From: Chloroflexota bacterium
GTDB lineage: Bacteria; Chloroflexota; Dehalococcoidia; UBA2979
Assembly (NCBI GenBank): GCA_947446155.1
Contig: CANFFZ010000001.1
Coordinates: 1-55,773, forward strand
Reading direction: 5' to 3'
Length of the DNA stretch: 55,773 bases
This document shows, one piece after another, positions 1 through 55,773 of this stretch; positions within the stretch are counted from its first letter, which is position 1; each line of letters opens with the position of its first letter. Below the pieces are notes generated by a model. It saw only the letters and a program-made list of their open reading frames with translations, had not been told where the DNA came from and made no database searches. The position numbers were made by a program, and so were the translations under genes.

Positions 1-9
1 GGAGGCTCA

Positions 10-168
10 ATGGCCGTCGTAAATGCGTACTGCGTGAAGTGCAAAGAAAAGCGCGACATGAACAACGCCGAGAACACCACCATGAAGAACGGCAAGCCCG
101 CCGTGAAGGGCGTCTGCCCCGTCTGCGGCACCGGCATGTTCAAGATCGGTGGCGTCGTCCCCGCCTAG
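10..168 (+). CDS. DUF5679 zinc-ribbon-like small protein
   Basis: A 52-residue protein with an ideal GGAGG ribosome site at the very left edge, 5 bases before the ATG. It has two Cys pairs, YCVKCK near residues 7-12 and VCPVCG near residues 38-43, which should form a small zinc ribbon. The arrangement (Cys pair, basic linker with KNGKPA, then CPVCG and GMFKIG) is that of the DUF5679 family, common in Chloroflexota and some archaea, whose role is unknown. A short GC hairpin overlaps its stop codon. The fit to the family is good; function is unknown. Confidence 0.85.
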   Translation: MAVVNAYCVKCKEKRDMNNAENTTMKNGKPAVKGVCPVCGTGMFKIGGVVPA

Positions 169-174
169 GCGGGG
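159..174. terminator. GC hairpin over the DUF5679 stop
   Basis: CCCCGCC and GGCGGGG flank the central TA of the stop codon, giving a compact stem. There is no T tract after it. A second hairpin follows at 268-304 (CCGTGCC/GGCACGG, loop 4, with outer GTGAG/CTCAC). Either could end the upstream transcript; neither is a classic intrinsic terminator. Confidence 0.35.
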
Positions 175-623
175 CGCACGGCTCGACCGCGCCCCGGCAC
201 CGCCGAGGCGCACACCCGCCCTCATCTCTTCCGGATTCCGTTCTCTCGAGCGAGCGGCCCCCGGAAGGTGAGGGCGATTCCGTGCCCCGCGGCACGGCAC
301 TCACTACGTGCGGTCCCGAGGTCGCGCGCACCTCCAACACCCAGGTGGCGCACGTCTAGAAAACAAACCCTTTCGCGGCGGACATCACCGCGAATCTGCG
401 GCTAGAAAGCATCTGTGTTCTAGCGCCCGCCCTCGATCGGCGCCCGCAGACTCCATGTTTTACGTGAAACATATGTTCTTATCCTTCACGCTGTTTTTTT
501 CGTGGTGGGGCGTCTGCGAAAAAACCTCGGGCGTCACGACGCAGAGACACCTACTCCAACCAATCGATCTGTAGCGGACGCAGCGCTCGACCTATCCTGT
601 TCTCGCACCGAAAGGAGCCTGCC
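169..623. other. 455-base gene-free region with parS-like site
   Basis: I find no convincing gene here. The region holds a terminator-like hairpin (268-304), a perfect 7-bp inverted repeat TTCGCGG/CCGCGAA (372-378 and 388-394), a parS-like palindrome (456-471) and a T run near 493-499. It is visibly more AT-rich between about 455 and 560 than its surroundings. The downstream gene at 624 is probably transcribed from here. Confidence 0.5.
456..471. promoter_or_regulatory. parS: parS-like ParB binding site
   Basis: The 16-mer TGTTTTACGTGAAACA differs at one position (T for C at base 6) from the conserved bacterial parS palindrome TGTTNCACGTGAAACA recognised by ParB/Spo0J. Known biology: ParB loads on parS near the replication origin and recruits SMC. 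It lies in a gene-free AT-rich pocket, as expected for a binding site, but no parAB or origin gene is in the window. Identification rests on this match alone. Confidence 0.5.
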
Positions 624-1154
624 ATGCAGGTTCTGCTCTCCTCCCCCAACATCACCTGTGAGCACTGCATCGAAACCATCCGAGGCGTTGTAGACGCCGT
701 CGAGGGTGCGCACCTCATCTCCGGAGACCCCGACGCCCGCAGCTACATCGTTGACCTCGCCTCCGGCGCGCTCCTCGACACCGTCGCCACACGCCTCGCC
801 GCCGCTGACTACCCCCTCGGCGACGTCTCCACCGAGGCCGCGCACCACGCAGGCACCTTCACCCCCGACTGGCGCCCCTCCGACTGGCGCATCGTGAAAA
901 CCGACGCCGGCGCGAACGTGAACTACGACTGCTACTGCGGTTGCGATGCCGGCTTCGCGCTCGACCGCGCCCAGGCTGACCAGCCCCTCGAATCGTGCTG
1001 CTGCGGCAACCAGATCCTCGTCGGCACGGACGCCGGCGCCCGCATCACCTCGAAACTCGACGGGTCTGCGGGCTACCGAGTCGACGTACAGCAGGTGACG
1101 ATGCCATGGGGCCAGCCGCTAGAGGTCGCCCTGGCCATCCCACTCGGGGGATAG
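624..1154 (+). CDS. heavy-metal-associated domain protein with Cys-rich tail
   Basis: A 176-residue protein with a clear AAAGGAG ribosome site. Residues 1-65 look like a heavy-metal-associated ferredoxin-like fold with the metal pair C12-x-x-C15 (ITCEHC), followed by the typical helix IRGVVDAV. The C-terminal half has two further Cys clusters: C103, C105 and C107, then C125-C127 in a CCCG stretch. In HMA domains the C-x-x-C pair binds Cu(I) or other soft metals. I infer a soluble cytoplasmic metal-binding or delivery protein; the C-terminal cluster is not a domain I can name. No efflux ATPase is adjacent. Confidence 0.7.
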   Translation: MQVLLSSPNITCEHCIETIRGVVDAVEGAHLISGDPDARSYIVDLASGALLDTVATRLAAADYPLGDVSTEAAHHAGTFTPDWRPSDWRIVKTDAGANVNYDCYCGCDAGFALDRAQADQPLESCCCGNQILVGTDAGARITSKLDGSAGYRVDVQQVTMPWGQPLEVALAIPLGG

Positions 1155-1161
1155 CCCTCGA

Positions 1162-3201
1162 CTACTCCGCGCTGAGCCCGATCTCCCGCAGGAACGCCGC
1201 GCTCGACGGCTCCCGGCCGAGGAACGACCGCACGAGGTCGGCGCCGTCCAGCGTCCCCCCGGCCTCGAGGATCGTGCGCCGGTAGTCGAGCCCCGCCGCC
1301 GCCTCGACCTCCGGCCCGCCCTCGAACCGCCCGTACATGTCGTCACCGAAGACCTGCGACCACAGGTAGCCGTAGTAGCCCGCGTCGTAGCCGAACAGGT
1401 GCCCGAAGCCGGCCTGGAAGTGCGTCCCGGCGGGGAACGGGAAACCCGTGATCCCGTGGAGCGCTTCCGCGAGCGCATCTGTGTCCTTAGAGGCCCCAGC
1501 GTCGTGGTAGGCGAGGTCCAGGCGCGCGAAGAAGATCTGGCGCAGGTAGTGGAGGCCGCTGCCGACGTTCTTCGCGGCCACTATCTGCGCCAGCAGCGCC
1601 TCCGGCAGTGGCTCGCCCGTCGTCACGTGCCGCGTGAACCCCCGTAGCACCGAGGGCTCCCACGTCCAGTGCTCCAGCATCTGCGAGGGCGCCTCGACGA
1701 AGTCGCGCTCCACGTTCGTCCCGGCGAAGCGGTTGTACGGCGAGCGCGTCATCACCTGGTGCAGGATGTGCCCGAACTCGTGGAAGAGCGTCTCCACCTC
1801 GGAGTGCCGTAGCAGGCTCGGCGACTCCGCCGAGGGCTTGGTAAAGTTGGCGACGATCGCCGCCGCGGTCGGCCCATACTTGTGGGGCCCAGTCGTGCCG
1901 TCCGCGAGCGTGCGCCCGGGCCGCAGCATGAACGCCGCGGCGTGTCCGTACTTGTCCGGCCTCGGGTGCAGGTCCATGTAGAAATGCCCGATGTATGCGC
2001 TCTCTGAGCCTTCGAGGGCATCGACGACTGCATACAGCCGCACGTCCTCGTGCCACGCCAGCGTCTCCGCCACCGGGACGAAGCGGACGCCCACGAGTCG
2101 CTGGTAGACCTCGAACAGGCCATCGAGGACGGCATCCATCGGGAAGTACTCGGCGACGGCGAACTGGTCGACCTGGTAGCGCTCTCGCATGACGCGCTGT
2201 TGGTAGTACCGCCAGTCCCAGATTTCGAGGCGTGCGTGCGGGTCCTCGAGGTGGCGGCGCTTCTCCGCCTGCAACTCCTCGATGTCCCGCTCCGCCTTCA
2301 CCCGCACCTGCCGCTCGAGGTCCACGAGGAAGTCGAGCGCGGTCTCCGGCGTCTTCACCATCTTCGTCTCGATCACGTAGGCGTCCCACGAGGGGTAACC
2401 CAGCGTCTCCGCGATCTCGTGGCGGATTCCGATCGCTTCGGCGAGCAGGGGGAGGTTGATGTCGGCAGCGCGGTTGTGGTTCTTCAGGAAGAGTTCCCGC
2501 CGTAGCGATTCGTCCTCAGCGGCCTCCAGGAACGGGTAGAACTCGGGGTAGTCGAGCGAGACGCGGTAGCGAGGCCCCTCGGGGGTCTCGACGGTCTGCA
2601 GCCGGTCGATATACGTGTTCGGCAGCCCGCGCAGGTCCTCCAGCTGGAGCAGCAACGCGTCCTCGAACTCATCGATGTTGCGGCGGAACTCCACGCCCAG
2701 CCGCACGAGGCGCTCCTTCAGCGTCTGCACCCGCCCTCGGCGTGGGGCGTCCAGATCGAAGCCGTTGCGACGCGTGTCCCGCAGCGTGTGCGCCAGCAGC
2801 CGCGCGTCGACGCCCTCGAGGGCGCGCGCCTCGTCGGTCGCCGCGTACGCGCGCACGGCGGCAGCGATGTCCTCGCGGAAGCCCACCGTGGTGCCGTACG
2901 TGTCGAGCCGCTGCTCCGCCTCGAGCGCCACGTCGCGCAGCGTGGCGTCCGCCGCGACGTAGGTGAGGAAGCCGTGCTCTCCGCTCGCCAGCGCCAGCAG
3001 ACTTGCCACCTCGTCGAGCGGCGCGACCGTGTTGGCGAACGTCCGCGCACCCTCGATCCGCGCGACGCCATCGAGGATCGCGTCGCAGCGCGCGATGGCT
3101 TCCTCGGTGCCTGCGCGGATGCGCTCGGGTGTCGCGAGCGTGAAGTCGAAGGGTGGCGTCGAGGCAAGGTCGGCGGAGCGGTCTGGCATGCCTCGAATCA
3201 T
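1162..3201 (-). CDS. M3 family metallopeptidase (oligopeptidase)
   Basis: A 679-residue zinc oligopeptidase of family M3 (oligopeptidase A/thimet type). The zinc motif H474-EFG-H478 sits in the catalytic helix. It is followed by NVERDFVEAPSQMLEHW, carrying the third zinc ligand Glu in the usual place, and GSGLHYLRQIFFARLDL downstream. The long N-terminal helical part and overall length match the family. It is expected to be cytoplasmic and to degrade short peptides. There is no signal peptide. An alternative start Met lies four codons in (MPDRSADL); neither start has a strong ribosome site. It converges on the preceding gene with only 7 bases between stops. Confidence 0.93.
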   Translation of the reverse strand: MIRGMPDRSADLASTPPFDFTLATPERIRAGTEEAIARCDAILDGVARIEGARTFANTVAPLDEVASLLALASGEHGFLTYVAADATLRDVALEAEQRLDTYGTTVGFREDIAAAVRAYAATDEARALEGVDARLLAHTLRDTRRNGFDLDAPRRGRVQTLKERLVRLGVEFRRNIDEFEDALLLQLEDLRGLPNTYIDRLQTVETPEGPRYRVSLDYPEFYPFLEAAEDESLRRELFLKNHNRAADINLPLLAEAIGIRHEIAETLGYPSWDAYVIETKMVKTPETALDFLVDLERQVRVKAERDIEELQAEKRRHLEDPHARLEIWDWRYYQQRVMRERYQVDQFAVAEYFPMDAVLDGLFEVYQRLVGVRFVPVAETLAWHEDVRLYAVVDALEGSESAYIGHFYMDLHPRPDKYGHAAAFMLRPGRTLADGTTGPHKYGPTAAAIVANFTKPSAESPSLLRHSEVETLFHEFGHILHQVMTRSPYNRFAGTNVERDFVEAPSQMLEHWTWEPSVLRGFTRHVTTGEPLPEALLAQIVAAKNVGSGLHYLRQIFFARLDLAYHDAGASKDTDALAEALHGITGFPFPAGTHFQAGFGHLFGYDAGYYGYLWSQVFGDDMYGRFEGGPEVEAAAGLDYRRTILEAGGTLDGADLVRSFLGREPSSAAFLREIGLSAE

Positions 3202-3221
3202 ACGGGTGGAAAATGAAGCGG

Positions 3222-3746
3222 CTAGATCGCCTCGTCGGGGTGCTGACGGGGGAGGCCGCTCAGGGCGAACGCGGCCTCGACGAGGTCAGTGGCGCCCTCG
3301 ATCTCCGACTCGATCGTCAGGAACTCCGTGTCGTGGTGGACCAGTTTGTAGCGTGAGTTGCCGAGGTACTCGACCTTCTCGATGCGCTGGAGGTCCCGCC
3401 ATGCCACCTCGTGGATCGGCTGGCCCAGGTGGAGCGCGGTGACGCCCTCGACCGTGAGCACGATCGCAGTGGCGGTGCCACGCCAGGTCAGCAGCACGAT
3501 GGGCACCATCAGCAGCGTGACCACTGCGGCGAAGAGCCCGAACCCCTTCGCCTCAGTCAGGTCGAGCGCGAATCCGAGCCCCAGCGCCACGACCGTGACG
3601 AGCAGCGGCAGCGCGAACGAGGCGTTCTGCCACCAGCGGTTGGGGTTGGCGAACACCCGCACGACCTGGTGCATGGTCGCCACGGCGCGTGCGTCCGAGG
3701 CGTGGAGGTCGGGCAGGGGGTGCTCGTCGGTCATGGGCGGAATCAT
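3222..3746 (-). CDS. membrane protein with PH-like domain
   Basis: A 174-residue protein with two hydrophobic helices (about residues 43-62 and 68-87), the second followed by a short TWRGTA turn. The C-terminal region (EGVTALHLGQPIHEVAWRDLQRIEKVEYLGNSRYKLVHH) reads like a bacterial PH-like/YcxB-type beta barrel. Probably an inner-membrane protein with a cytoplasmic PH-like domain; no partner is suggested by the neighbours. It sits 20 bases upstream of the M3 peptidase on the same strand. A later Met (MTDEHPLP) is an alternative start. Function is unknown. Confidence 0.7.
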   Translation of the reverse strand: MIPPMTDEHPLPDLHASDARAVATMHQVVRVFANPNRWWQNASFALPLLVTVVALGLGFALDLTEAKGFGLFAAVVTLLMVPIVLLTWRGTATAIVLTVEGVTALHLGQPIHEVAWRDLQRIEKVEYLGNSRYKLVHHDTEFLTIESEIEGATDLVEAAFALSGLPRQHPDEAI

Positions 3747-3798
3747 CGCTCGGCGTGGCGCGTAAGACGAGCCTGCGCCCCCACGCTGACGCAGGGGA

Positions 3799-3804
3799 TA
3801 GGAT
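3799..3804 (+). promoter_or_regulatory. possible -10 element (TAGGAT)
   Basis: TAGGAT lies 22 bases before the ATG of the luciferase-like monooxygenase. It fits a -10 box with a short leader. No good -35 is visible, so this is only a candidate. Confidence 0.25.
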
Positions 3805-3826
3805 CGAGGGGCGTGGGGAGCCCTCG

Positions 3827-4843
3827 ATGCCTGACCAGCCAGCCCGATCCGCCCTCCGACTGAGCGTCCTCGACCAGGCGCCGATCCGTGAGGGCGGCAC
3901 TGCTGCGCAGGCGCTGCGTGAGTCGATCCTGCTCGCCCAGGCCGTCGAGCGCTTCGGGTACTCCCGCTTCTGGCTCGCGGAGCACCACGCGAGCGGTGGC
4001 CTCGCCTGCGCCGCCCCCGAGGTCGTCATCCCCGCCGTCGCCGCGCAGACCTCGACCATCCGGGTGGGGTCGGGCGGCGTGATGCTGTCGCATTACGCGC
4101 CGCTGAAGGTCGCCGAGCAGTTCCGCGCGCTGGAAGCGCTGTTCCCCGGCCGCATCGACCTCGGCATCGGCCGCGCGCCGGGTAGCAGCATGCAGACGAA
4201 GCAAGCGCTGGAGCACGGCCCCGGCACCCTCCCGCTGGAGGCGTTTCCCGACCAGGTCGAGGACCTCCTCGGCTACCTCGACGATGCGCTGCCCGCGGAC
4301 CATCCGTTCTTCGGCATCCACGCGAGCCCGATGATCGACGGGACACCCGAGGTCTGGTGCCTCGGTTCCTCGCTGGACGGGGCGGCGATCGCCGCCGACC
4401 TCGGGCTGCCGTACTGCTTCGCGCAGTTCATCGCGCCCGAACTCGGCCCACGCGCGGTCGCGCTCTACAAGACGCGCTTCAAGCCCTCGAAGTGGGCGGC
4501 AGAGCCGCGCGTCTCCATCGGCGTGTCGGGCCTCTGCGCAGCCACCGACGAGGAGGCCGAGCGCCTCGCCCTCAGCCGCTACGTGTGGCGCTTCCGTCGC
4601 GGCGCCGTGCCCTCGCCCGCGACCGCTGCCGCATTCGAGATGACCCAGCCCGAGCGAGACTACGTCGCCTTCTCGATGTCGAAGGCGGCCGTCGGGTCGC
4701 CCTCGACCGTGCGAGCACGCCTCGAGTCGCTCGCGGACGAGTTCGGTGCGGAGGAGATCGTGCTGCTCACGATCACCTTCGACTTCGCTGACCGCGTCCG
4801 CTCCTACGAACTCGTCGCACGTGAATTCGGCCTCTTCGAGTAG
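3827..4843 (+). CDS. LLM class flavin-dependent monooxygenase
   Basis: A 338-residue luciferase-like (bacterial luciferase alpha/beta TIM-barrel) oxidoreductase. Hallmarks: LSVLDQAPIREGG at the N-terminus, RFWLAEHHA, VGSGGVMLSHYAPLKVAEQFRALEALFPGRIDLGIGRAPG, and VWCLGSSLDGA. Such enzymes use reduced FMN and O2 to oxidise an organic substrate. The start at MPDQPARS was chosen because GGGGAG lies just upstream and family members begin there; an open frame extends to 3689 but is not conserved-looking. A flavin reductase follows 10 bases downstream, so the two likely form a two-component monooxygenase. Substrate unknown. Confidence 0.9.
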   Translation: MPDQPARSALRLSVLDQAPIREGGTAAQALRESILLAQAVERFGYSRFWLAEHHASGGLACAAPEVVIPAVAAQTSTIRVGSGGVMLSHYAPLKVAEQFRALEALFPGRIDLGIGRAPGSSMQTKQALEHGPGTLPLEAFPDQVEDLLGYLDDALPADHPFFGIHASPMIDGTPEVWCLGSSLDGAAIAADLGLPYCFAQFIAPELGPRAVALYKTRFKPSKWAAEPRVSIGVSGLCAATDEEAERLALSRYVWRFRRGAVPSPATAAAFEMTQPERDYVAFSMSKAAVGSPSTVRARLESLADEFGAEEIVLLTITFDFADRVRSYELVAREFGLFE

Positions 4844-4853
4844 GGAGCCATCG

Positions 4854-5402
4854 ATGGTTGGTCGCAAGATCCAGAAGACCGAGGACGACTACATCAGCGA
4901 GGCGATGCACGAGCTGCCCTATGGCATCTACGTCATCGGCTCCACGCGTGACGGCAAGCCGAACGGGATGATCGCCGACTGGGTGATGCAGGTCTCGTTC
5001 AGCCCGCGTCTCGTCCTCGCCGCCTTCGAGCGCGACTCCTCTTCCCTCGCCCGCATCCGTGAGAACGGCTTCTACACCGTGAACCTGCTCCCGCAGAAGG
5101 ACGGCCTGCTCATCGCCCAGCGCTTCGTCCAGCCCTCAAACGCCGCCAAGGTGCGAGGCCGCAGCGACGAGGCAGCCGCGCAGCAGCACGACAAACTCGC
5201 GGGCACCGACTACCGGCTCTCCGAGCGCGCCCCCGGCTGCCCCATCCTCGACGACGCCATCGCCTACCTCGAGTGCGCCGCTGAGCAGTTCATCGAGGCC
5301 GGCGACCACATCGTGGTCACCGCGCGCGTCCTCTACGGCGAAGTCCAGCACAGCGGCGACCCGCTCACCTCGACGTACACCGGGTGGTCGTACTCGGGGT
5401 AG
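4854..5402 (+). CDS. flavin reductase family protein
   Basis: A 182-residue flavin reductase-like, FMN-binding split-barrel protein. Visible features: HELPYGIYVIGSTRDGKPNGMIADWVMQVSFSPRLVLAAFE (flavin-binding strand and loop) and GDHIVVTARVLYGEV near the C-terminus. It should supply reduced flavin to the adjacent luciferase-like monooxygenase, with which it is clearly co-transcribed (10-base gap, GGGAG ribosome site overlapping the upstream stop). An open frame extends upstream into the previous gene, so the ATG at 4854 is the sensible start. Confidence 0.88.
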   Translation: MVGRKIQKTEDDYISEAMHELPYGIYVIGSTRDGKPNGMIADWVMQVSFSPRLVLAAFERDSSSLARIRENGFYTVNLLPQKDGLLIAQRFVQPSNAAKVRGRSDEAAAQQHDKLAGTDYRLSERAPGCPILDDAIAYLECAAEQFIEAGDHIVVTARVLYGEVQHSGDPLTSTYTGWSYSG

Positions 5403-10295: not shown

Positions 10296-10318
10296 GCGAT
10301 CGAGGCTCACCAATACCG

Positions 10319-14058: not shown

Positions 14059-14132
14059 GTGGGGCTCCAGTCTGACCGGGTAGTGCGGATCGAGGCCCGA
14101 GTCTAACAGCGTCTCGGGACCGGGGAATCGCG

Positions 14133-19361: not shown

Positions 19362-20180
19362 CTAAGGCCGCCGTGAGTTCGCGACGCTGCAGACGCTCGC
19401 GCGTCCGAACGCACCTTCGAGGTCGTACAGGACGCATTCCCCGACCGCGATGCCCTCGGAGGCGTTGTGCCCCACGACTTCGACGCCGATCCAGTCGCCC
19501 ACCGGGTTGCGGTGGAGGTACAGCGAGGCGTCCGCGTTCACGTAGTTCAGCCCTCGGTCACCGGAGTTGGCGAACGGGTTCGCGAAGTCCGAGACCATGG
19601 CGGCGCGCACCAGCGGGCTTGGTCGCTCATCCTCGACGAAGTTCACGATGTCGCGGATCCAGGCGCGCTTCTGCACGGGCGGCTCGGCAGGACCGGGTCC
19701 CATCCGGCCAGTGATCGAGCGCGTCTCCCACATTGGGGGACCGAACTCGGTCGGTGGGGGCGGCGGGAGTGGCAGGGTGTCGGGGTGCGGCACGTCCCAC
19801 GCAGGTGCACTCCACACAGTGCCCTCGGGCGGCGCGGCGCGGCGGAGCATGACCACGCTTGTCCGCGCGATTTCGAGGCCGTCCTCGAGCTGCAGGGAGG
19901 CGTCCGCCACGCGGATGCGGTTGCCGTCCCGCACGACGTTGGTGACGACATTGATGGGTTTCATCGGCGCGACGCGGAACATGTCGACCGTCACCCGGGC
20001 GACTTGGAACGCCGGGTCGAGGTGCTCACGCTCGACCTCGTACAGCAGCAGGCCGGCAATCACGCGGCCGTGGAGCGAGTTCGGATCCCACGGGCCGCGC
20101 GTACGAGGAGTGGGGTGGAACAGCGCGCCTTCGCGGTGGAAGAAGGTCGTGTCTGGCGCAATGCCTTCGTTGGTGGTCAT
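19362..20180 (-). CDS. acyl-CoA thioesterase family protein (double hotdog)
   Basis: A 272-residue protein of the TesB-like thioesterase family. The first hotdog has GPWDPNSLHGRVIAGLLLYEVE and VDMFRVAPMKPINVVTNVVRDGNRIRVADASLQ. The second ends at NYVNADASLYLHRNPVGDWIGVEVVGHNASEGIAVGECVLYDLEG. Such enzymes hydrolyse acyl-CoAs; the linker is Pro-rich (PLPPPPPTEFG). It is followed at once by the YgjP-like gene on the same strand. It fits the acyl-CoA theme of the CoA-transferase and hydratases further right. Confidence 0.85.
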   Translation of the reverse strand: MTTNEGIAPDTTFFHREGALFHPTPRTRGPWDPNSLHGRVIAGLLLYEVEREHLDPAFQVARVTVDMFRVAPMKPINVVTNVVRDGNRIRVADASLQLEDGLEIARTSVVMLRRAAPPEGTVWSAPAWDVPHPDTLPLPPPPPTEFGPPMWETRSITGRMGPGPAEPPVQKRAWIRDIVNFVEDERPSPLVRAAMVSDFANPFANSGDRGLNYVNADASLYLHRNPVGDWIGVEVVGHNASEGIAVGECVLYDLEGAFGRASVCSVANSRRP

Positions 20181-20222
20181 GAGAACACTCTAGGTGTGCC
20201 CCCAGACACGAGGAAGTGCGGC

Positions 20223-20828
20223 CTAATCGAGATGCTGGCCCCGCCGCAGTTTGTGGATCTCAGCAGCGATCACGCCCTCGTGGATGTCGAGTGTCGCGAA
20301 CGTGCCCACGTCCCCGGGGGAGTGGCGCATGCCGGGGCGGCTGGGGCTGCCGGGGTTGAGGAACAGCACGCCTTGATACCAGCCGATGTATTCGTCGTGG
20401 GTGTCGCCGAAGCAGACCACGTCCACCTCGGTACCAAAGCGTGGGCGCAGCTGGTCCTGCACCGGCCCCGGTGGGAAGCCGAGCGTGTGCGTGAACGTGA
20501 ACGGGAGCGGCCAGCGCGGGTCGTGCACCATCCCGATGCGGATGCCCTCCACCTCCACCACGCGCAGGACATTCGCGAGGCGATCGCCTTCCTCGACAGG
20601 GTCGGGGTAGCCCCGAACGGCGAGGACGGGCGCGACGGTCTCAAGGTGGTCGAGCACGCCGAGGGAGTCCAGGTCGCCGCAATGCAGGATCAGGTCCACA
20701 CCTCGAAGCGCGTGGAGCAACTCGGGCGGGGAGTCCCAGCCATCACCCTGGGCATGCGTATCGGAGACGACGGCGATGCGCTTCCCGCCGAGGCGGACGC
20801 GCCCGGGACGAGCGGACGGTGGGAGCAT
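20223..20828 (-). CDS. calcineurin-like phosphoesterase, divergent (YfcE-like)
   Basis: A 201-residue phosphoesterase-fold protein. The first motif (VVSDTHAQG) and second (LILHCGDLDS) are canonical. The third reads VRGYPD where relatives have GN(C/D)D, and the last reads FGDTHDE where relatives have GHTH, so two usual metal ligands (Asn and the first His) appear substituted. It may be a YfcE/MJ0936-type phosphodiesterase with altered metal binding, or inactive. The start at MLPPSARP has a GGAAGG-like site; the longer open frame overlaps the upstream leader region. Confidence 0.75.
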   Translation of the reverse strand: MLPPSARPGRVRLGGKRIAVVSDTHAQGDGWDSPPELLHALRGVDLILHCGDLDSLGVLDHLETVAPVLAVRGYPDPVEEGDRLANVLRVVEVEGIRIGMVHDPRWPLPFTFTHTLGFPPGPVQDQLRPRFGTEVDVVCFGDTHDEYIGWYQGVLFLNPGSPSRPGMRHSPGDVGTFATLDIHEGVIAAEIHKLRRGQHLD

Positions 20829-20882
20829 CACAGACAGGCCTTCCTCTTCCTGTGGGATGTTAGGGCCTCGTAGATTTGTACG

Positions 20883-20975
20883 TTGCCTTGAGCGAACGCC
20901 CGCTGGAGACGGTCGCCTCGGAGCTGGCCGGGTAGGCGGGAGCCAGCAGCGGCTTACCGACAGCCGTCGTGGCAA
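20883..20975 (+). promoter_or_regulatory. possible c-di-AMP (ydaO/yuaA) riboswitch
   Basis: The leader of the KimA-like gene contains elements reminiscent of the ydaO class. There is an outer pairing TTGCC (20883-20887)/GGCAA (20971-20975), a GTAGG element near 20932, and ACCGACAGC (20956-20964) just before the closing strand, as in the conserved ACCCGACAGC segment. Known biology: ydaO riboswitches switch off K+ importers such as KimA when c-di-AMP is high. The upstream half matches poorly, so this is a tentative call. Confidence 0.4.
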
Positions 20976-21030
20976 ACGGCCGAACGCTTGCAGTCTGGGC
21001 ACGCGGGAAGTTTGATCAGGTGGATGCGCG

Positions 21031-21048
21031 CCTCCCCGGCGCCGGAGG
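21031..21048 (+). promoter_or_regulatory. hairpin masking the ribosome site of the KimA-like gene
   Basis: CCTCC (21031-21035) pairs with the GGAGG ribosome site (21044-21048) four bases before the ATG. This would block initiation unless another structure frees it, as expected for translational control by the leader above. Confidence 0.45.
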
Positions 21049-21052
21049 TGTC

Positions 21053-23122
21053 ATGACGGTTCCCAGCGATGGTGATCTCTCCTCAGGGGAAGACACGCCC
21101 AGCCCACGCCCCGTGACCCGCGCTGGTCGAGTGCTCCCCGGCAGTCGTCTGGGGTCGCGCCGCGTCCGCATCGGGCGGGCGCTGCATCCGACGGATGACG
21201 GGCACCTCGTGGCGACGGAAGCCGCAGACCGGCCGACAACTCAGGGTGGCGCGTGGGCTCACCGCCTGCGCAACGGGTTGTTCGGGCCGCCGCTCTCGTC
21301 CGAAGGAGAAGCTGGCGAGCGCCTGAACAAGGTGCGTGCACTCGCGATCTTCGCCTCGGACGCGCTGTCGTCCTCCGCGTATGCGACGGAGGAAATTCTC
21401 TTAGTGCTGGTGACGGCTGGAGCGGTCGCGCTCAGCCTCGGCTTGCCCATCTCGATCGGGATCGCGATCTTGCTGGCGATGGTGACGATGTCGTATATGC
21501 AGACGGTGCGCGCCTATCCGAACGGCGGTGGGGCGTACTCGGTGGCCCGGGAGAACATCGGCCCCTGGGCGGGGCTGATCGCCGCCGCGGCACTGCTGAC
21601 TGACTACGTCCTCACGGTCGCCGTGAGTATCTCGGCTGGATCGCTCGCGGTGATCTCAGCCATCCCGGCGCTGGCGGACTACCGCGTGCAGATCGCGTTG
21701 GTCTCGCTCGTGCTGCTGACGCTGGGCAACCTTCGAGGTGTCCGCGAGTCTGGCACCGTGTTCGCGGTGCCGACGTATCTCTTCATCTTCTCCTTCGCTG
21801 CCATGATCGTCGTCGGTGGCGTGCGCCTCGCGATCGGGCTCGATGGTGCGACGCTGACGACGACTGCGGCACCCCAGCACACGCTGGAGGCGACAGCTGG
21901 CGTGGGGCTCATCCTCGTTCTGCGGGCGTTCGCGTCCGGCTCGACGGCGCTGACCGGTGTCGAGGCGATCGCGAACGGCGTGACCGCGTTCCAGGAGCCC
22001 GCGCCGAAGAATGCGCGCATCACGATGGGGCTGATGGGTGGCATCCTGGCGTTCTTCTTTGTCGGTGCGACCTTCCTCGCCTGGCGGTTGGGTGTCGTGC
22101 CGATCCACGACGAGTCGGTGATCTCGCAGATCGGACGGTCGGTCTTCGGCACCGGCAGCGTGGCGTATTACTTCCTCCAGGCGACGACTGCGACGGTGCT
22201 GATCCTGGCGGCGAACACGGCATACAACGGCTTTCCGCGTTTGGCCTCGATCCTCGCCGAGGACCGCTACATGCCTCGTCAGTTCGCGTACATCGGTGAC
22301 CGGCTGACGTTCGTCACGGGGATTGTGGCGCTGACCCTCGTGTCCGGGGTGGTCATCGTGCTGTTCCAAGCGGACACCCACCGGCTGATCCCGCTGTATG
22401 CCATCGGGGTGTTTGCGGCGTTCACGCTGTCCCAGATCGGCATGTTCCGTCACTGGCGGTCGAGCGGTGAGCGCGGTTGGTGGCGGCCAGCGATCGTGAA
22501 CGGCACCGGTGCGGTGATGACTGGCGTGGTGATGGTGGTGGTCGCGGGCACGAAGTTCACACACGGCGCCTGGTTCGTGCTGATCCTGGTGCCAGTGATG
22601 GTCTGGCTCCTGGGCGGCATTCACGCTCACTACACCGAGGTCGCCCGGATCTCTCTGATGCCAGACGAGGATGCACGACCGTTCCCTCGCCCTTCGGGGA
22701 TTGGCGCGGAGCCGGTGGTAGTCACCGTGCGCGACTTGAATCGCGTGTCGTGGCGGGCTGTGCAGTACGGGCGACGGCTGTCGTCGAATGTCACGGGGGT
22801 CTACGTCGCGCGCGGCGGGCATGACGACATCGAAGCGTTCCAACGCCGCTGGGCGAGACTCGTCCCGGACGTGCCATTGGTGGTGGTGGAGTCGCCGTAC
22901 CGCACGTTCGTCGGGCCGCTGCTGGCTTACGTAGACCGCGTCGCCCTCGACCCTCGCGACCCGGTGTTGGTGCTGGTGCCTGAGTTCCGGCCGAGGCACT
23001 GGTGGGCGCGCATTCTGCACAACCGGACGACAGAGCAGATCCAGGTCGCGGCGGAGCAGAGCCCCAACTTGCTGGTCGTGCAGGTCACCGTGCATCAGGA
23101 CACGCTGCGCGAACTCGCGTAG
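21053..23122 (+). CDS. KimA-like APC-superfamily potassium transporter
   Basis: A 689-residue protein with a ~100-residue cytoplasmic N-terminus, about twelve membrane helices and a ~190-residue cytoplasmic C-terminal domain. The membrane core has RALAIFASDALSSSAYATEEIL, VRAYPNGGGAYSVARENIG and VLRAFASGSTALTGVEAIANGV, which match the KimA (YdaO) type K+/H+ symporters of the APC superfamily. The C-terminal domain (EPVVVTVRDLNRVSWRAVQYGRRLSSNVTGVYVARG) is USP-like, as in KimA. The start was chosen for GGAGG at 21044. The alternative is a generic amino-acid permease. Confidence 0.85.
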   Translation: MTVPSDGDLSSGEDTPSPRPVTRAGRVLPGSRLGSRRVRIGRALHPTDDGHLVATEAADRPTTQGGAWAHRLRNGLFGPPLSSEGEAGERLNKVRALAIFASDALSSSAYATEEILLVLVTAGAVALSLGLPISIGIAILLAMVTMSYMQTVRAYPNGGGAYSVARENIGPWAGLIAAAALLTDYVLTVAVSISAGSLAVISAIPALADYRVQIALVSLVLLTLGNLRGVRESGTVFAVPTYLFIFSFAAMIVVGGVRLAIGLDGATLTTTAAPQHTLEATAGVGLILVLRAFASGSTALTGVEAIANGVTAFQEPAPKNARITMGLMGGILAFFFVGATFLAWRLGVVPIHDESVISQIGRSVFGTGSVAYYFLQATTATVLILAANTAYNGFPRLASILAEDRYMPRQFAYIGDRLTFVTGIVALTLVSGVVIVLFQADTHRLIPLYAIGVFAAFTLSQIGMFRHWRSSGERGWWRPAIVNGTGAVMTGVVMVVVAGTKFTHGAWFVLILVPVMVWLLGGIHAHYTEVARISLMPDEDARPFPRPSGIGAEPVVVTVRDLNRVSWRAVQYGRRLSSNVTGVYVARGGHDDIEAFQRRWARLVPDVPLVVVESPYRTFVGPLLAYVDRVALDPRDPVLVLVPEFRPRHWWARILHNRTTEQIQVAAEQSPNLLVVQVTVHQDTLRELA

Positions 23123-23148
23123 GCCCGCCCTCGATACCGCTGGACGCC

Positions 23149-23178
23149 GTGAGAGCGCCCAGGGGAAGGCGCTCTCAC
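23149..23178 (+). terminator. terminator hairpin after the KimA-like gene
   Basis: GTGAGAGCGCC (23149-23159) and GGCGCTCTCAC (23168-23178) form an 11-bp perfect stem with an 8-base loop, 26 bases after the stop. No T run follows. It lies between convergent genes. Confidence 0.65.
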
Positions 23179-23246
23179 GAGGGGGGTGCGAGTGGGGCCA
23201 GGGCTCGAGTTCGCGCGGCTGCGCGACCCGACCACCCCGCTGAGGG

Positions 23247-24107: not shown

Positions 24108-24193
24108 GTTGGTGTCCTTCGAGTGGGCCCGGTAGGGCGGCGTCATGAATGGAACGAGCAGGGCCGGAGGACGTTCGCTTCCTCACAGAAATG

Positions 24194-24221
24194 AGGAGGG
24201 CGCCCACATGGGCGCCCTCCT
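24194..24221 (-). terminator. strong terminator after LGI-repeat protein B
   Basis: A 13-bp perfect stem (24194-24206 with 24209-24221) and a minimal loop, just beyond the stop of the leftward gene. On that strand it is followed by TCATTTCTG, only moderately T-rich. It should uncouple the two paralogous genes. Confidence 0.75.
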
Positions 24222-24251
24222 GAGCGTGGGTGATGGAATCTCGACCGGTGC

Positions 24252-25169: not shown

Positions 25170-25310
25170 CCGAGCTGCTTGTGGGAGCCGCTCTCGATGT
25201 CCTGAAGACTACGAGTCACGCGTTTGGGAACTCTGTGCCTGTGATTCCGAATTCTTTGGACTCGATGCTAGCCTCCGAGGACCGTCAGGGGACGTGTGAA
25301 GGAGCCGCGT

Positions 25311-25778: not shown

Positions 25779-25795
25779 TCGAGGTAGATGCCGGA

Positions 25796-26377: not shown

Positions 26378-26431
26378 GCTGCCGCCTTCCGGACGTCTCT
26401 CCCCGTCGAGACTATCGCAGAACGAGGCTCG

Positions 26432-26926: not shown

Positions 26927-26967
26927 GTCTCGATAGTCACCCGCAACGCCGCTGAAGTCGAGCCCGC

Positions 26968-27938: not shown

Positions 27939-27946
27939 GAGGAGGT

Positions 27947-31526: not shown

Positions 31527-32773
31527 GCATCTTGGACTCCATCCGGACGGCGCTCCGGGCGATCGGGGCGAACCGACTTCGCAGCGGTCTAACGGCGCTG
31601 GGACTGGTCATCGGCGTCGCGTCCGTGATCGTCCTGATCGCCGTGGGGCAAGGCGCACAGCAGGGCGTGCAGGACCGCATTCGAGGGCTAGGGTCGGACC
31701 TGATCTTCGTGAAGCCAGCGGCGCAGACCGACCGCACCACGGGGGCCCGCGGCGCCCAGGGCGGTGGCATCACACTGACCGCTGCAGATGCCGATGCCAT
31801 CATCGCAGCGAACATCCCCGGGGTGATGGGGGTCGCGCCGCAGCTGTCGTTCAACGCGCAGGCGATTGCACAGAGCCAGAACCTGGGCGTGACGGTGATC
31901 GGCACCACACCGGCCTACACAGATGTGCGCGATGCGAAGGTGGTGCAGGGCGACTTCATTGGCCCGGAGGACATTGATCGCCGCGCCCTGACGGTCGTCT
32001 TGGGTTCCGCCGTCGCGGAGTCGCTGTACCCAGACGGGGACGCGATCGGACAGCAGGTGCGCCTTGCGCTGGGGCCACAGGGCTTCAATTTCCGGGTGAT
32101 CGGGGTGATGGCGACGCGCGGCGGCACCGGCGAGCAGGACAACTATGTCTTCATCCCCGTGCCCTCACTCTCCTCGCGGATTGGATTCCTTCGCAATCCA
32201 AGAGGTGATGTCTCCGTCAACCAGATCAACATCCGTGCGGTGCCGGGGGCGAACCAGGACGCGATCAAGACGGCGCTCATGGACCTCCTTGTGCAGCGGC
32301 ATCAGGTCGTTGCACCCGACTTCACGCTCCAGAGTCAGAACGACCTGGTGGGTGCCGCAGCCGAGGTCAGCCGCACGCTATCGATCCTCCTGGGGAGCAT
32401 CGCCGGCATCTCACTCATCGTGGGTGGCATTGGGACGATGAACATCATGCTGGTATCGGTGACTGAGCGGACGCGGGAGATCGGCATCCGTCGTGCAGTT
32501 GGGGCACGTGGGGTCGACGTGATGCGTCAGTTCGTGACCGAGGCGATCGCCCTGAGCCTGGTCGGAGGCCTGATCGGCGTCGGGATTGGTGTCGCCGCGG
32601 CCGTGGGGATCGACGGACGTGATATTTCCGGTACCGCCATGCAGACCGCGATCCAGACGTGGAGCATTGTGCTGGCGTTCGGCGTGGCGCTGCTCGTCGG
32701 GCTGATCAGCGGCTCGTACCCGGCGTTCCGTGCCGCGAGACTCGATCCCATCCTCGCTCTCCGCAGCGAGTAG
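31523..32773 (+). CDS. MacB-like ABC permease (FtsX type)
   Basis: 416 residues. N-terminal helix in RLRSGLTALGLVIGVASVIVLIAVGQGAQ, an extracytoplasmic MacB_PCD domain (about residues 45-270), then three helices of the FtsX domain. These include LLGSIAGISLIVGGIGTMNIMLVSVTERTREIGIRRAVGARGVDVMRQFVTEA, and the protein ends SGSYPAFRAARLDPILALRSE. Start GTG overlapping the ATPase stop. With the adaptor it should expel peptides, lipids or drugs across the cytoplasmic membrane; no TolC-like partner exists in the window. Confidence 0.93.
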   Translation: MSILDSIRTALRAIGANRLRSGLTALGLVIGVASVIVLIAVGQGAQQGVQDRIRGLGSDLIFVKPAAQTDRTTGARGAQGGGITLTAADADAIIAANIPGVMGVAPQLSFNAQAIAQSQNLGVTVIGTTPAYTDVRDAKVVQGDFIGPEDIDRRALTVVLGSAVAESLYPDGDAIGQQVRLALGPQGFNFRVIGVMATRGGTGEQDNYVFIPVPSLSSRIGFLRNPRGDVSVNQINIRAVPGANQDAIKTALMDLLVQRHQVVAPDFTLQSQNDLVGAAAEVSRTLSILLGSIAGISLIVGGIGTMNIMLVSVTERTREIGIRRAVGARGVDVMRQFVTEAIALSLVGGLIGVGIGVAAAVGIDGRDISGTAMQTAIQTWSIVLAFGVALLVGLISGSYPAFRAARLDPILALRSE

Positions 32774-32797
32774 CCCGCACACGTCCCTTGTCGCCCC

Positions 32798-32803
32798 TAC
32801 GAT
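32798..32803 (+). promoter_or_regulatory. possible -10 element (TACGAT)
   Basis: TACGAT lies 20 bases before the glycosyltransferase ATG, in the 50-base gap after the permease. It would allow separate transcription. No clear -35. Confidence 0.2.
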
Positions 32804-32823
32804 GCGCGTGCATCGGAGGTGGC

Positions 32824-34668
32824 ATGCGAGCAGTACTGCGATCCTGGCGACCTCAAGGTTTGCGCGAGTTCTGGCGTACTTATGCGCTGGAGGCTGCCGG
32901 CCTTGCCACCGCACTCGGCATCGCTGCCGGGCTCCGGTTCGTCGCGCTGGGTGAGGCCGGCCTCGGCAACCTCTTCTACGCATCGACGGTGCGCTCGATG
33001 GGCCAGTCATGGGGCCACTTCTGGTACGCGGCGTACGACCCCGCCGCCACGCTCACGGTCGACAAGCCGCCACTTGCGCTGTGGTTTCAGGTGCTGGCCG
33101 TGCGCATCGGTGGCTTCGATGGCATCTCGCTGATCGGGCCGATGGCGGTCGCTGGCGTTTTCGCCGTCGGCCTGACCTGGGGGGCAATGAGGCGCACGGC
33201 AGGCCCGCTCGCGGCACTGGTGGCGGCACTGGCGCTGGGGGTGTTCCCCGAGTCAGTCGCGACTTCACGAGACTCGACGATGGACGCGATGCTCGCAGCC
33301 TTCCTCGCCGGCGCCGCGTGGTTATTGATCGTCGCGGTCGAGACGCCGAGGCCGCGCCTCCTGCTGGTGTGGGCGCTGGTGATAGGCTTGCTGTTTAACG
33401 TGAAGTTCTTCGAAGGCTTTTTGGTGATGCCGGCGGCTGTGCTGTACGTCGGCCTGCGCTGGCGGCGCGATGTCATCACGCGCTGGCGGCCGATCGCTGG
33501 TGCGGGCGCGGTACTGGTGCTGGTGAGCGTCGCGTGGGTCGCCTCCGTTGAACTGACACCCGCCGAACACCGACCGAGGATCATGAATGACCGCTCGAAC
33601 AGCGCGATCGGCCTCGTGTTGCGCTATAACGGCTTCGAGCGAGTCCTGCCCGGCGAGGTCACGATCTTCGCGCCGGTTCCGGGTGGGTCGGCGGATACGA
33701 ACGCGCAGATCCGCGCGTCGGCGCTCGCCTTTGGTGTGGGCGACGCCGGCCCTGGGCGCCTCGTCACCGGATCCAACGGGCCGCTGCTCGGTGCGACGGT
33801 GCTCCTCGCGCTGGCGGGTATCGCGCTGGTCGTGCGGGAGCCGAGGCGGTTCCTGGCGAGTCCAGCCCTGTTCTGGGCTGCTTGGGCCATCACCGGCATC
33901 GTGCTGTTCACCGTCTCCAATCGTGCCGCCGCGCAGTACACGGAGTCGTACGCGCCAGCCCTCGCTGCCCTCGTGGGGCTCGCCGCAGCCGAGGTGGTGC
34001 GACTGCGAGGTTGGCCCGGCGCCGTCGTGACCGTCGCGGTGGTGCTGGGTGTCGCGGTGTATGCGAGGTGGGCGGTCCGAGGCCACCCGCCGCTGATCCA
34101 CGCGACCACGATTGCCGTGGTGTTGGTTGTGTTCGCGGCTGCGCTCGTGCTGTTGGCATGGTCGCGTCGGCACGCCTCGCTGTACCGGGGGCTCGCGTTG
34201 GTTGCGGTGCTGGCGGTGCCGGCGGCGGCTTCGATCTGGATCGCGACAGAGACGCCGCACGGCGGACAGATCACACGCCCGAACCCGCTCGTCTACGCCG
34301 CGAAACGACCGCCGGCGCCCGGCGCTCGAGTCATCCCGATCGACAACGTGCTGACGGCGTTCCCAGATCAGGGGACGAAGTACCGCTTCGGCGTCGATGG
34401 CGTGAACAACGCCGGGGAGGCCGTGGCCTACGGCAACGTCTCCGTGCTTCCTGTCTGGAACGAGTACCAGCGGACTGGCATGTTGCCTCCAGAGGAACTC
34501 GATGAGTTGCTGGCAAGCGGACAGGTGCCTGGCCTCATCCTCGGTCTGGGGCGGCTGCGAGGCGGGTTGATCGGGCGCGATGTCATGGACGTGGTGATGA
34601 AGCGCTGCCGGCTCGATCCGCGGGCGCGTGTCGGCCAGGAGTGGTCGGTCTGGCGCTGTGTGCCCTAG
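32824..34668 (+). CDS. GT39-like membrane glycosyltransferase (ArnT/PMT superfamily)
   Basis: 614 residues with about twelve helices. The first extracytoplasmic loop has the family signature SWGHFWYAAYDPAATLTVDKPPLALWFQ (D80-KPP), and SRDSTMDAMLAAFLAGAAW is the second conserved motif. It transfers a sugar from a polyprenyl-phosphate donor to lipid or protein on the outer face. The start is set by GGAGG 7 bases upstream. The soluble C-terminal ~120 residues (KYRFGVDGVNNAGEAVAYGNVSVLPVWNEY) match the ArnT-like group of Gram-positive and chloroflexotal bacteria. Confidence 0.88.
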   Translation: MRAVLRSWRPQGLREFWRTYALEAAGLATALGIAAGLRFVALGEAGLGNLFYASTVRSMGQSWGHFWYAAYDPAATLTVDKPPLALWFQVLAVRIGGFDGISLIGPMAVAGVFAVGLTWGAMRRTAGPLAALVAALALGVFPESVATSRDSTMDAMLAAFLAGAAWLLIVAVETPRPRLLLVWALVIGLLFNVKFFEGFLVMPAAVLYVGLRWRRDVITRWRPIAGAGAVLVLVSVAWVASVELTPAEHRPRIMNDRSNSAIGLVLRYNGFERVLPGEVTIFAPVPGGSADTNAQIRASALAFGVGDAGPGRLVTGSNGPLLGATVLLALAGIALVVREPRRFLASPALFWAAWAITGIVLFTVSNRAAAQYTESYAPALAALVGLAAAEVVRLRGWPGAVVTVAVVLGVAVYARWAVRGHPPLIHATTIAVVLVVFAAALVLLAWSRRHASLYRGLALVAVLAVPAAASIWIATETPHGGQITRPNPLVYAAKRPPAPGARVIPIDNVLTAFPDQGTKYRFGVDGVNNAGEAVAYGNVSVLPVWNEYQRTGMLPPEELDELLASGQVPGLILGLGRLRGGLIGRDVMDVVMKRCRLDPRARVGQEWSVWRCVP

Positions 34669-34678
34669 CGCTTGGGCG

Positions 34679-35545
34679 CTACCTCGACTTCAGGAAGTCG
34701 AGGATCCCCCAGGCGAGGCCTTGCGCGATGGTGTCCCGCGCTCGATCGTCCTTGAGCAGGGCGACGTCATCGGTATTCGAGATGAAGAGTAGTTCCACGA
34801 GTACGCCCGGCATCAGCGCGGGCACCTTCGCCTGAGCGCTCCCGCCGAGGGTGGTCTGGCCACCCGGTGAGAGCACGAAGAGGCCGACACAGCGTCCAGC
34901 CCCACCTCGCCAGCACGAGGAGTCGATGATGCCGCGGTCGTGGATGCCGTATCCGGCGCGGTCCGTGCTCTCAATCATGCGGTCCTGCACCGTGCGCGCG
35001 AGACGCTTGTTCTCGCCAGCAAACTCGCGGCGGCTCTCCCAGTAGACCTCGATGCCACGCGCGCTGGAGTCGGCCGATCCGTTGGAGTGGATCGAGACGA
35101 ACACGTCTGAGTTGGCCGCGTTCGCCAGCCTGACCCGTTCGGCGAGCGAAGCCCGCGAACCATCCCGGCCGGTGCCGCCGCCACCCGGTGGGTAGTTCGT
35201 GTCGCGTCGGGTGACGACGACCTCGACGCCTTGCTGCTGGAGGTAGCGCTCGACGCGGAGCGCGAAGTCAACGTTCGAATCCTTCTCCACGACGCCGTAG
35301 GCGGCCGCACCAGACTCGTCGCCACCGTGCCCGGGGTCGAGGGTGACGATGTACTTGCCATCGAGCGCTGCGGTGGCGGACATCGGCGTGGCGAGTGGCT
35401 TCGCGTCGACCGTTTCCGGTGCGGCGTTGACCTCGACAGCGGGTGTCGATGTCGTGGCCGCCGCGGGCGCACGGACATCAGCGCCGCACGCCGCGAGCGA
35501 GAGTGCGAGCGCACTGGTGATCGCTGCGATCAGTCGAATCCGCAT
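34679..35545 (-). CDS. N-acetylmuramoyl-L-alanine amidase lipoprotein (Amidase_3)
   Basis: 288 residues. N-terminal lipoprotein signal with lipobox LAAC (Cys20), a short Thr/Pro/Ala linker, then Amidase_3. IVTLDPGHGGDESGA carries the first zinc His, FALRVERYL the Glu, VFVSIHSNGSADS the second His, and VLVELLFISNTDD the catalytic Glu. It cleaves the amide bond between MurNAc and the stem peptide. The start has GGAG 7 bases upstream. A cell-wall amidase argues for peptidoglycan in this organism, which some Dehalococcoidia lack. It converges on the glycosyltransferase. Confidence 0.92.
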   Translation of the reverse strand: MRIRLIAAITSALALSLAACGADVRAPAAATTSTPAVEVNAAPETVDAKPLATPMSATAALDGKYIVTLDPGHGGDESGAAAYGVVEKDSNVDFALRVERYLQQQGVEVVVTRRDTNYPPGGGGTGRDGSRASLAERVRLANAANSDVFVSIHSNGSADSSARGIEVYWESRREFAGENKRLARTVQDRMIESTDRAGYGIHDRGIIDSSCWRGGAGRCVGLFVLSPGGQTTLGGSAQAKVPALMPGVLVELLFISNTDDVALLKDDRARDTIAQGLAWGILDFLKSR

Positions 35546-42083: not shown

Positions 42084-42197
42084 CCGCCGCCATCTTCCGC
42101 GTGAGGATTGATGGTAACGGTGAGGATTCCGCAGGGTGTGCCAGCCGAGGCGCGACCGTACCCTCGATGGTGGATCGTCAGGTTGCGAGGAGCGCCT

Positions 42198-49212: not shown

Positions 49213-49303
49213 CGGGGTGTCCTTCTCGCTGCGCTCGTGGCCTGCTTCCCCTCCAGTTGACGCGATCGGAGGCCTCCGTGGCAACCCTCGATGCCTCCCG
49301 GGG

Positions 49304-55259: not shown

Positions 55260-55366
55260 GAAAGCAGAACCTACCGTAGCGACGCCCGTTCCCGTGGTCA
55301 ATGTCGAGTCGGCTCGGGGAAGCGTCGGAGGGGCGGGCTGAGCGTGCGCCCTCGGTGGGTGGGCCG

Positions 55367-55372
55367 TAGAAT
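55367..55372 (+). promoter_or_regulatory. possible -10 element (TAGAAT)
   Basis: TAGAAT is 21 bases before the ATG of the small membrane protein, implying a very short leader. No clear -35. Confidence 0.3.
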
Positions 55373-55393
55373 CGAGGGTGAAAGAGGCACCGT

Positions 55394-55636
55394 ATGCCCA
55401 GCACCCCGCCCCGCCGTCGACTGACCCGTGTCGCCCCGCCTCGGCCGACCTACGACGGCGCTCCGCTGCCCGTGGCGGCAGCGTCCGAGCACACCTCACG
55501 GCAGGCGCTGCGGCCGACGGCCTACGTCGCCCGTGAGGCGGTCAACGTGAAGATGGAACTCCGGCGCGTCGCCGGGGTGACCGCGACCTGCTTCGGGCTG
55601 CTCGCGATCCTCGCCATCATCGACCGAGTGCAGTAG
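55394..55636 (+). CDS. small membrane protein with C-terminal anchor
   Basis: 80 residues. A basic, Pro-rich cytoplasmic N-terminus (about 55 residues) with a conserved-looking RPTAYVAREAVNVKMELRRV stretch precedes a single C-terminal helix (VAGVTATCFGLLAILAIIDRV). A tail-anchored small protein; function unknown. The preceding tRNA is on the other strand. Confidence 0.6.
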   Translation: MPSTPPRRRLTRVAPPRPTYDGAPLPVAAASEHTSRQALRPTAYVAREAVNVKMELRRVAGVTATCFGLLAILAIIDRVQ

Positions 55637-55683
55637 AGAATCGACCGGGTGTAGTAGGCACCCTTCCGCGCAGGCCTCGAAGG

Positions 55684-55773
55684 TCAGCGCAGGCGGTTTG
55701 ACACCGTACTCACCGCGATCAGCAGCAGGAAGATCCCGGCGAAGTCGCGGATCAGCGTCGTCGAGTCGCCACC
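55684..55773 (-). CDS. C-terminal end of a membrane protein (partial)
   Basis: Open from the right edge to a TGA at 55684-55686, 29 residues visible: GGDSTTLIRDFAGIFLLLIAV then STVSNRLR. It shows one hydrophobic helix and a short basic tail. Too little remains to name a family; the start lies outside the window. Confidence 0.5.
   Translation of the reverse strand, partial: GGDSTTLIRDFAGIFLLLIAVSTVSNRLR

Follow-up and report, generated by a model that had tools for sequence, protein, structure and literature searches.

The genome from which this stretch of DNA derives appears, like several of its relatives, to have a lineage-specific preference for the pentamer CCTCG and its complement CGAGG. 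The preference is graded and is present on both strands, in genes and in the gaps between them, and in nearly all longer genes. It is probably the product of a lineage-specific bias towards a short word, due to mutation, repair or weak selection and acting on top of codon use. At the DNA level, the process behind it would be mutation, repair or fixation biased by sequence context so that CCTCG changes less often. The same kind of bias would give other genomes their own top word. Inside genes, codon use amplifies the preference. The most likely reading, in which we infer the mutational step itself, involves no dedicated signal. The case shows, for a lineage known from metagenomes, how a word preference at the DNA level can be told apart from codon use; it also identifies the correct unit and lists genomes with and without the preference.

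The window, meaning the whole stretch analyzed, comprises 55,773 bases at 68% GC and is a fragment of a Dehalococcoidia chromosome. The M3 peptidase that it encodes shares 92% identity with that of L004 (genome G004, contig CAMBFG010000005.1) and 81–87% with those of four more MAGs (L001, L002, L003 and L005; Dehalococcoidia or Chloroflexi). Contig 5 of G004 is co-linear with positions 1–20000 of the window at 90–94%, and G004 is the closest relative of the window; the word counts for this genome come from a 200 kb sample. The L004 record is labelled Dehalococcoides mccartyi, a species of low GC content. This label looks wrong, given the 67% GC of L004 and the grouping of its M3 peptidase with those of high-GC Dehalococcoidia/Chloroflexi MAGs.

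The preliminary description reported a massive repetition of the hexamer CCTCGA/TCGAGG, with about 40 copies in the first 5 kb, and about thirty copies of the octamer CCTCGATG/CATCGAGG against roughly two expected. The counts are borne out. The first 5 kb contains 39 hexamers, and the whole window contains 228 (121 CCTCGA and 107 TCGAGG) as well as 38 octamers (25 CCTCGATG and 13 CATCGAGG). The expectations from base composition are also reproduced, at 38.1 hexamers and 2.1 octamers for the window. The size of the effect, in contrast, was overstated, because short-word composition and codon use account for most of it. The expected number of hexamers rises to 61 with dinucleotides, 100 with trinucleotides, 165.9 with a third-order Markov model and 204.6 with a fourth-order model; for the octamer, the corresponding values are 4.0, 7.8, 14.1 and 19.2, followed by 35.7 at maximal order. 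From the third order upward, the excess is 1.1–1.4x for the hexamer and 1.1–2.7x for the octamer. The third-order model is the one that had been proposed as a check. The maximal-order model was dropped as the sole null because it absorbs the signal into the word's own subwords. Base composition is the wrong yardstick, being too simple a null, and a warning is in order that expectations based on it exaggerate the excess of a word several-fold when the genome is rich in GC.

Successive 5-kb bins (n = 11) contain 39, 29, 19, 21, 9, 15, 5, 18, 25, 19 and 27 hexamers. The first 5 kb is the densest bin and therefore overstates the mean density about twofold. The word is present at all eight positions that had been given as examples of copies in gaps, and five of these lie in strict gaps, defined as intergenic stretches from which any in-frame extension has been removed; the other three (14090, 42162 and 49286) do not. 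Dispersed repeats carrying the word were rejected as a source, since the copies shown share no longer common sequence; the repeat families are short and diverged (20 of 49 shown).

Table 1. Copies and density of the word in the window.
Feature	Position	Strand	Basis
Core pentamer CCTCG/CGAGG, 658 copies	1..55773	both	counts
Highest density, 39 hexamers, against an average of about 20 per 5 kb over the window	1..5000		5-kb bins
Poorest stretch, 29 hexamers in 15 kb	20001..35000		5-kb bins
CCTCGA copy, strict intergenic gap	431..436	+	position check
CCTCGA copy, strict intergenic gap	10300..10305	-	position check
CCTCGA copy, strict intergenic gap	23129..23134	+	position check
CCTCGA copy, strict intergenic gap	55372..55377	-	position check
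CCTCGA copy, strict intergenic gap	55675..55680	+	position check
CCTCGA copy; possible N-terminal extension of a called gene	14090..14095	-	strict gap definition
CCTCGATG copy; possible N-terminal extensions of two called genes	42162..42169	+	strict gap definition
CCTCGATG copy; possible N-terminal extension of a called gene	49286..49293	+	strict gap definition

The unit of the preference is neither the hexamer nor the octamer, as had been supposed, but the pentamer, to which A and ATG are weak extensions. Against 287 copies of CCTCG/CGAGG expected from dinucleotides, the window contains 658; 228 of these are part of CCTCGA/TCGAGG and 38 of the octamer. Among all 5-mers, CCTCG/CGAGG ranks first against dinucleotides in the window and in the 200 kb of G004, and it also does so in gaps (98 seen, 49 expected in the window; 267 and 111 in G004) and in strict gaps (62 and 30; 152 and 66). 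It ranks first again in a synonymous shuffle, in which codons are permuted inside each gene while the protein and the codon counts of each gene are kept (557 seen, 364 shuffled, 1.53x, z 10 in the window; 2537 and 1684, z 21 in G004); within positions 20–40 kb of the window, CAGCG takes first place in this test. The one-mismatch neighbors of CCTCG are not enriched (0.98x in the window, 0.97–1.03 over the genomes compared), while those of the longer words are (1.5x for CCTCGA and 2.8x for CCTCGATG in the window). The hexamer and the octamer are the pentamer plus ordinary neighboring biases. Judged against dinucleotides, the octamer heads the 8-mers in all five genomes studied in depth (the window, G004, G017, G018 and G026); by synonymous shuffle, it does so in none of the five. 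The choice of leucine codon follows the same context, with the share of CTC among CTC and CTG in G004 being 86% in C_G, 75% in A_G, 59% in G_G and 37% in C_C. The interaction of C and G in this choice has z values of 4.0 in the window, 7.8 in G004 and 5.8 in G017; G_C scores 4.2 in the window. As a separate observation, pairs of CCTCG/CGAGG sites are slightly over-common at a spacing of 18 bp, at 2.55x of the shuffle in the genes of the window and G004 and 2.22x in those of G017, with most other multiples of three showing a pair excess of about 1.6–2.0x; within each set, three of the four orientation classes show the 18-bp excess.

Genes were delimited with a simple ORF caller, and a comparison by eye showed its calls to agree in strand with the 34 ORFs that have Pfam matches. 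The genes of the window contain 184 hexamers compared with 125 (sd 8.4) after synonymous shuffling, and 30 octamers compared with 14; the corresponding numbers for the G004 sample (200 kb) are 833 and 564 (sd 15.7), and 126 and 72. Nearly every gene of at least 450 bp exceeds the mean of its shuffles; the window has 40 of 42 such genes, G004 173 of 176 and G017 127 of 138. Codon use, with leucine CTC before G and glutamate GAG between C and G, gives about two thirds of the genic copies. Outside genes, hexamer density is about equal to that inside them (42 in 10.0 kb of gaps, 184 in 45.8 kb of genes in the window). In strict gaps, CCTCG is seen 62 times in the window against 30.2±5.4 in 300 exact dinucleotide shuffles and 45.2±5.1 in 300 trinucleotide shuffles; for G004 the count is 164 against 75.5±8.7 and 111.6±8.2. 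No shuffle reaches these pentamer counts, the trinucleotide maxima being 59 and 136, while the octamer counts in strict gaps (3 in the window, 7 in G004) are reached by trinucleotide shuffles (maxima 4 and 7). The earlier statement that codon choice alone is not enough holds, since gaps, both strands and every frame all show the excess.

Relatives were surveyed with one script in 26 genomes, a set outside which stand the window and the two AT-rich genomes G020 and G022. CCTCG comes first against dinucleotides in 13 of the 26 and first in the shuffle test in ten; it is first in both in nine (G001, G003, G004, G005, G009, G017, G018, G023 and G026), with gap ratios of 1.2–3.0, the excess in gaps being weak (1.2x) in G001 and G003. 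These nine form the later CCTCG-rich list; the window, which also ranks CCTCG first, joins them. An earlier set of ten (G001–G005, G009, G017, G018, G023 and G029) had been chosen from small samples and closeness to G004; with larger samples, G002 went down to 1.22x and G026 went up. Intermediate values in the shuffle test, 1.22–1.26, are found in G002, G015, G019, G021, G025 and G032. Genomes of similar GC content can be low (G006, G008, G016, G024 and G030, at 1.08–1.12), the lowest value is 0.86 in G010, and four AT-richer genomes range from 0.86 to 1.22 on small counts. Among 20 further samples across the phylum (L077–L096), none has CCTCG as its top word, and other words take its place. 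Such words reach a similar size, as with CCTGC (3.0x over dinucleotides, 2.3x over shuffle) and ATCGA (3.7x and 1.9x). Per 20 kb, the dinucleotide z of CCTCG is 9–25, in the upper part of the sampled range, with other lineages reaching 18; the value of 25 comes from a 17-kb sample of G017 and becomes about 17 once the 211-kb sample (z 55.7) is scaled. On a RecA tree, which lacks G001, G002, G005, G024 and G030 (no usable row), the label changes 8 times compared with 10.2 after shuffling, and 16 of 200 shuffles are as low, so that clustering is weak. The sharing of CCTCG by several diverged genomes counts against a short-word bias, as a drifting bias need not produce it. One contig of G002 departs from its genome: L058 (contig 1, 20 kb) has little CCTCG preference (1.35x against 1.87x in other sampled G002 DNA) and little avoidance of AGCT (0.87 against 0.49), and could belong to a mobile region or have been binned wrongly.

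This distribution resembles that of lineage-specific over-represented oligonucleotides, or a genomic signature, as treated in PMC2843746 and PMC3757466. The word greatly exceeds the expectation from base composition in every frame, both inside and outside coding DNA; its excess goes beyond both the dinucleotide and the codon nulls, and it is shared by relatives and replaced elsewhere. In PMC3757466, residual structure beyond codon order is reported for all 906 chromosomes studied. The over-represented words described in PMC2843746 are A-rich and homopurine or homopyrimidine, whereas CCTCG is a specific pentamer of mixed sequence with a clear codon component. No description of a CCTCG word in Dehalococcoidia was found among the open-licence papers listed.

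Conservation was judged against an expectation set by codon and codon position. Between the window and G004, CCTCG ranks first among 345 5-mers in conservation (498 of 607 copies kept, 418.7 expected). It also ranks first against G001 and G005, 12th of 314 against G003 and 17th of 266 against G002; pooled over the five relatives, it is first of 340 (z 10.8). In gaps, 54 of 61 copies are kept relative to G004 where 41.5 are expected, and the other four relatives are near expectation (4 against 4.0, 3 against 2.5, 8 against 7.6 and 4 against 2.3). Conservation suggests that the bias is current. An enriched word is conserved anyway at equilibrium, and conservation therefore does not separate selection from mutation; top conservation, which could equally mean selection on sites, is a point against the short-word bias. 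A rough polarized count gives CCTCG 37 gains and 89 losses (70th of 87 words by gain/loss, 18th lowest loss rate), a poor fit to a steady state by a biased count. Little weight was placed on it, given outgroups diverged by 20%, 5605 unpolarized windows, and 576 C to T compared with 109 T to C changes.

Unlikely, though worth keeping in view, is the alternative that CCTCG is a site recognized by a nucleoid protein, by a factor of repair or replication, or by a modification enzyme that escaped notice, with weak purifying selection preserving it at thousands of loci. Its standing as the most conserved 5-mer beyond the codon expectation would agree with this, as would its presence in gaps and all frames, the interaction of C and G in leucine codons and the slight excess of 18-bp spacing described above for both gene sets. 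Relative to G004, change is reduced at all five positions (0.42–0.88 of expected), not at one, and at both flanking bases, and is near normal two bases out. In the four distant relatives pooled, however, it is reduced at only four of the five positions (0.81–0.94), and the first C is unprotected (1.03). The word is also graded and not sharp, words of similar size occur in other genomes, clustering on the RecA tree is weak, none of the five enzyme families tested is common to all ten CCTCG-rich genomes, and the sole widely shared methylase is Dam-like and is present in five of six CCTCG-poor genomes as well. It seems quite doubtful that some widely acting chromosome protein of Dehalococcoidia binds or modifies CGAGG as a degenerate site, selected at 12–15 sites per kb, which would make the word a non-palindromic counterpart of HIP1 hidden by its likeness to codon bias. 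A conserved site, if real, would suggest that a DNA-binding or modification system acts across the whole chromosome, and to our knowledge none is known in Dehalococcoidia.

Codon and amino-acid use alone would produce the word from Leu-Asp/Glu (CTC GA.) and Ile/Val/Leu/Phe-Glu (.TC GAG G) pairs, given preferred CTC, GAG and C-ending codons. Two codon-friendly frames, C|CTC|GA and TC|GAG|G, indeed hold 144 of the 184 coding hexamers of the window, and the shuffle predicts 125 coding hexamers in all. The 1.5x residue over the shuffle speaks against this account. In G004, the two friendly frames contain 708 hexamers compared with 529 shuffled (1.34x), and the four frames that need rarer codons contain 125 compared with 34 (3.7x). 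A small excess in friendly frames and a large one in the others is the pattern of a DNA-level preference filtered through codons. With gap density close to gene density and CCTCG first in gaps, codon use is improbable as the sole cause; it is refuted as a full account and stands as the larger part.

It is very improbable that the word is a by-product of avoided neighbors (CCWGG, GGAGG/CCTCC, AGCT and palindromes such as CTCGAG) that steer codon choice to CCTCG/CGAGG. In G004 genes, CCTGG, CCTCC and AGCT do fall to 0.53, 0.57 and 0.18 of the shuffle. In pooled strict gaps, however, CCTCC is not avoided (108 seen, 92 expected) and CCTGG only mildly (49 and 67), yet CCTCG is seen 265 times against 124; AGCT avoidance is also absent in G017 and G018, both strong in CCTCG. 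AGCT avoidance is striking in its own right, with 43 copies in the window (about 0.28 of the dinucleotide expectation), 0.16 in G004 and strong avoidance also in the samples of G001, G015, G016 and G025. It extends to gaps (6 seen, 27.5 expected in the window; 16 and 70.6 in G004). As AGCT is normal in G017 and G018, the trait is separate from the CCTCG preference. GGWCC, CCWGG and several palindromes (e.g., CTCGAG and CCGCGG) are below expectation in the window and G004, which could reflect restriction avoidance.

A methylation-linked ratchet of the HIP1 type, or a bias from Vsr-type very-short-patch repair, is barely credible here. HIP1 (GCGATCGC) of cyanobacteria is palindromic and linked to methylases according to PMC4390886. 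Like HIP1, the word is dense and genome-wide in genes and gaps, and its octamer reaches a similar density (38 in 55.8 kb, compared with 32 and 26 in 50 kb of two cyanobacterial control plasmids). In these plasmids, HIP1 is 136–150x over dinucleotides and 13–15x over shuffle, with bases 0.64–1.00 determined. CCTCGATG, in contrast, is 9.6x over dinucleotides and 1.8–2.2x over shuffle, with the bases outside the central CG 0.35–0.67 determined. CCTCG is non-palindromic, ranges from 2.3x (pentamer) to 9.6x (octamer) and has no matching enzyme in the tested families. A sharp word of the HIP1 kind, with few variants and near-fixed bases, is ruled out by this gradation, and the parallel with HIP1 drawn in the preliminary description fails with it; G017 looked sharper in 17 kb but not in 211 kb. 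Change relative to G004 is furthermore reduced at every position, not at one C to T step.

Most of the enzyme-screened genomes are fragmented assemblies, in which single absences mean little. Vsr was matched in none of the ten CCTCG-rich genomes, three of 28 overall and none of the later nine. C5 methylases were matched in three of the ten and two of the nine, N6/N4 methylases in six of the ten and six of the nine, type I methylases in four of the ten (one below cut-off) and two of the nine, and PDDEXK_1 (PF12705, the AddAB/RecB nuclease) in three of the ten (one below cut-off) and four of the nine. No methylase tracks the word among the four families tested. A Dam-family methylase, whose best solved relative is the DpnII adenine methylase 2dpm, occurs in nine of the ten, in five of six CCTCG-poor genomes and in all of the later nine. 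Its presence in nearly all these genomes would suit a methylation-linked origin, but the word does not contain GATC, whose counts show no enrichment relative to trinucleotides (0.84–1.01). Of the 17 high-GC relatives sampled, 15 had this adenine methylase, mostly as a single copy (L257–L271; e.g., L265:5264-6169 and L269:384-1382). The G004 copy has matched neighbors that include a GlnD-like protein, a response regulator, a histidine kinase and dehydrogenase/aldolase genes, and a small PDDEXK_11 protein lies about 2.3 kb away.

KOPS and Chi are polar words, short, abundant and non-palindromic. CCTCG is likewise short, abundant and non-palindromic, as are the AIMS, also polar words, described in PMC5993296. 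It would differ from AIMS, KOPS and Chi in showing no strong strand bias along one 200-kb stretch of a G004 contig with unplaced origin and terminus. The CGAGG share there is 0.47–0.58 in ten 20-kb bins over a GC skew of +0.08 to -0.06, slightly higher at positive skew, as for any G-rich word. A Chi reading calls for an AddAB/RecBCD-type nuclease-helicase in the same genomes, and PF12705 is unmatched in seven of the ten. DNA uptake words are over-represented in genes and gaps. CCTCG differs from them in being graded, without intergenic concentration and without inverted pairing in gaps, and the parallel with uptake words that had been suggested loses its ground. Pairs within 35 bp of gap number 6 (CCTCG..CGAGG) against 4 (CGAGG..CCTCG) in the window and 9 against 11 in G004, and this lack of a pairing excess speaks against hairpins and terminators. 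CGAGG as a Shine-Dalgarno element was rejected as well, since the co-directional gaps of G004 have no orientation bias (CCTCG/CGAGG 18/15 in ++ and 32/36 in --); those of the window lean towards such an element in ++ (4/10) and against it in -- (3/9).

Two further features of the window were observed. Positions 23247–25169 encode two adjacent proteins without a Pfam match and contain a diverged 44-nt repeat with two copy pairs 141 bp apart. At 35664–38063, a single gene contains two CoA-transferase III stretches, and a 36-nt segment is 94% identical between its halves.
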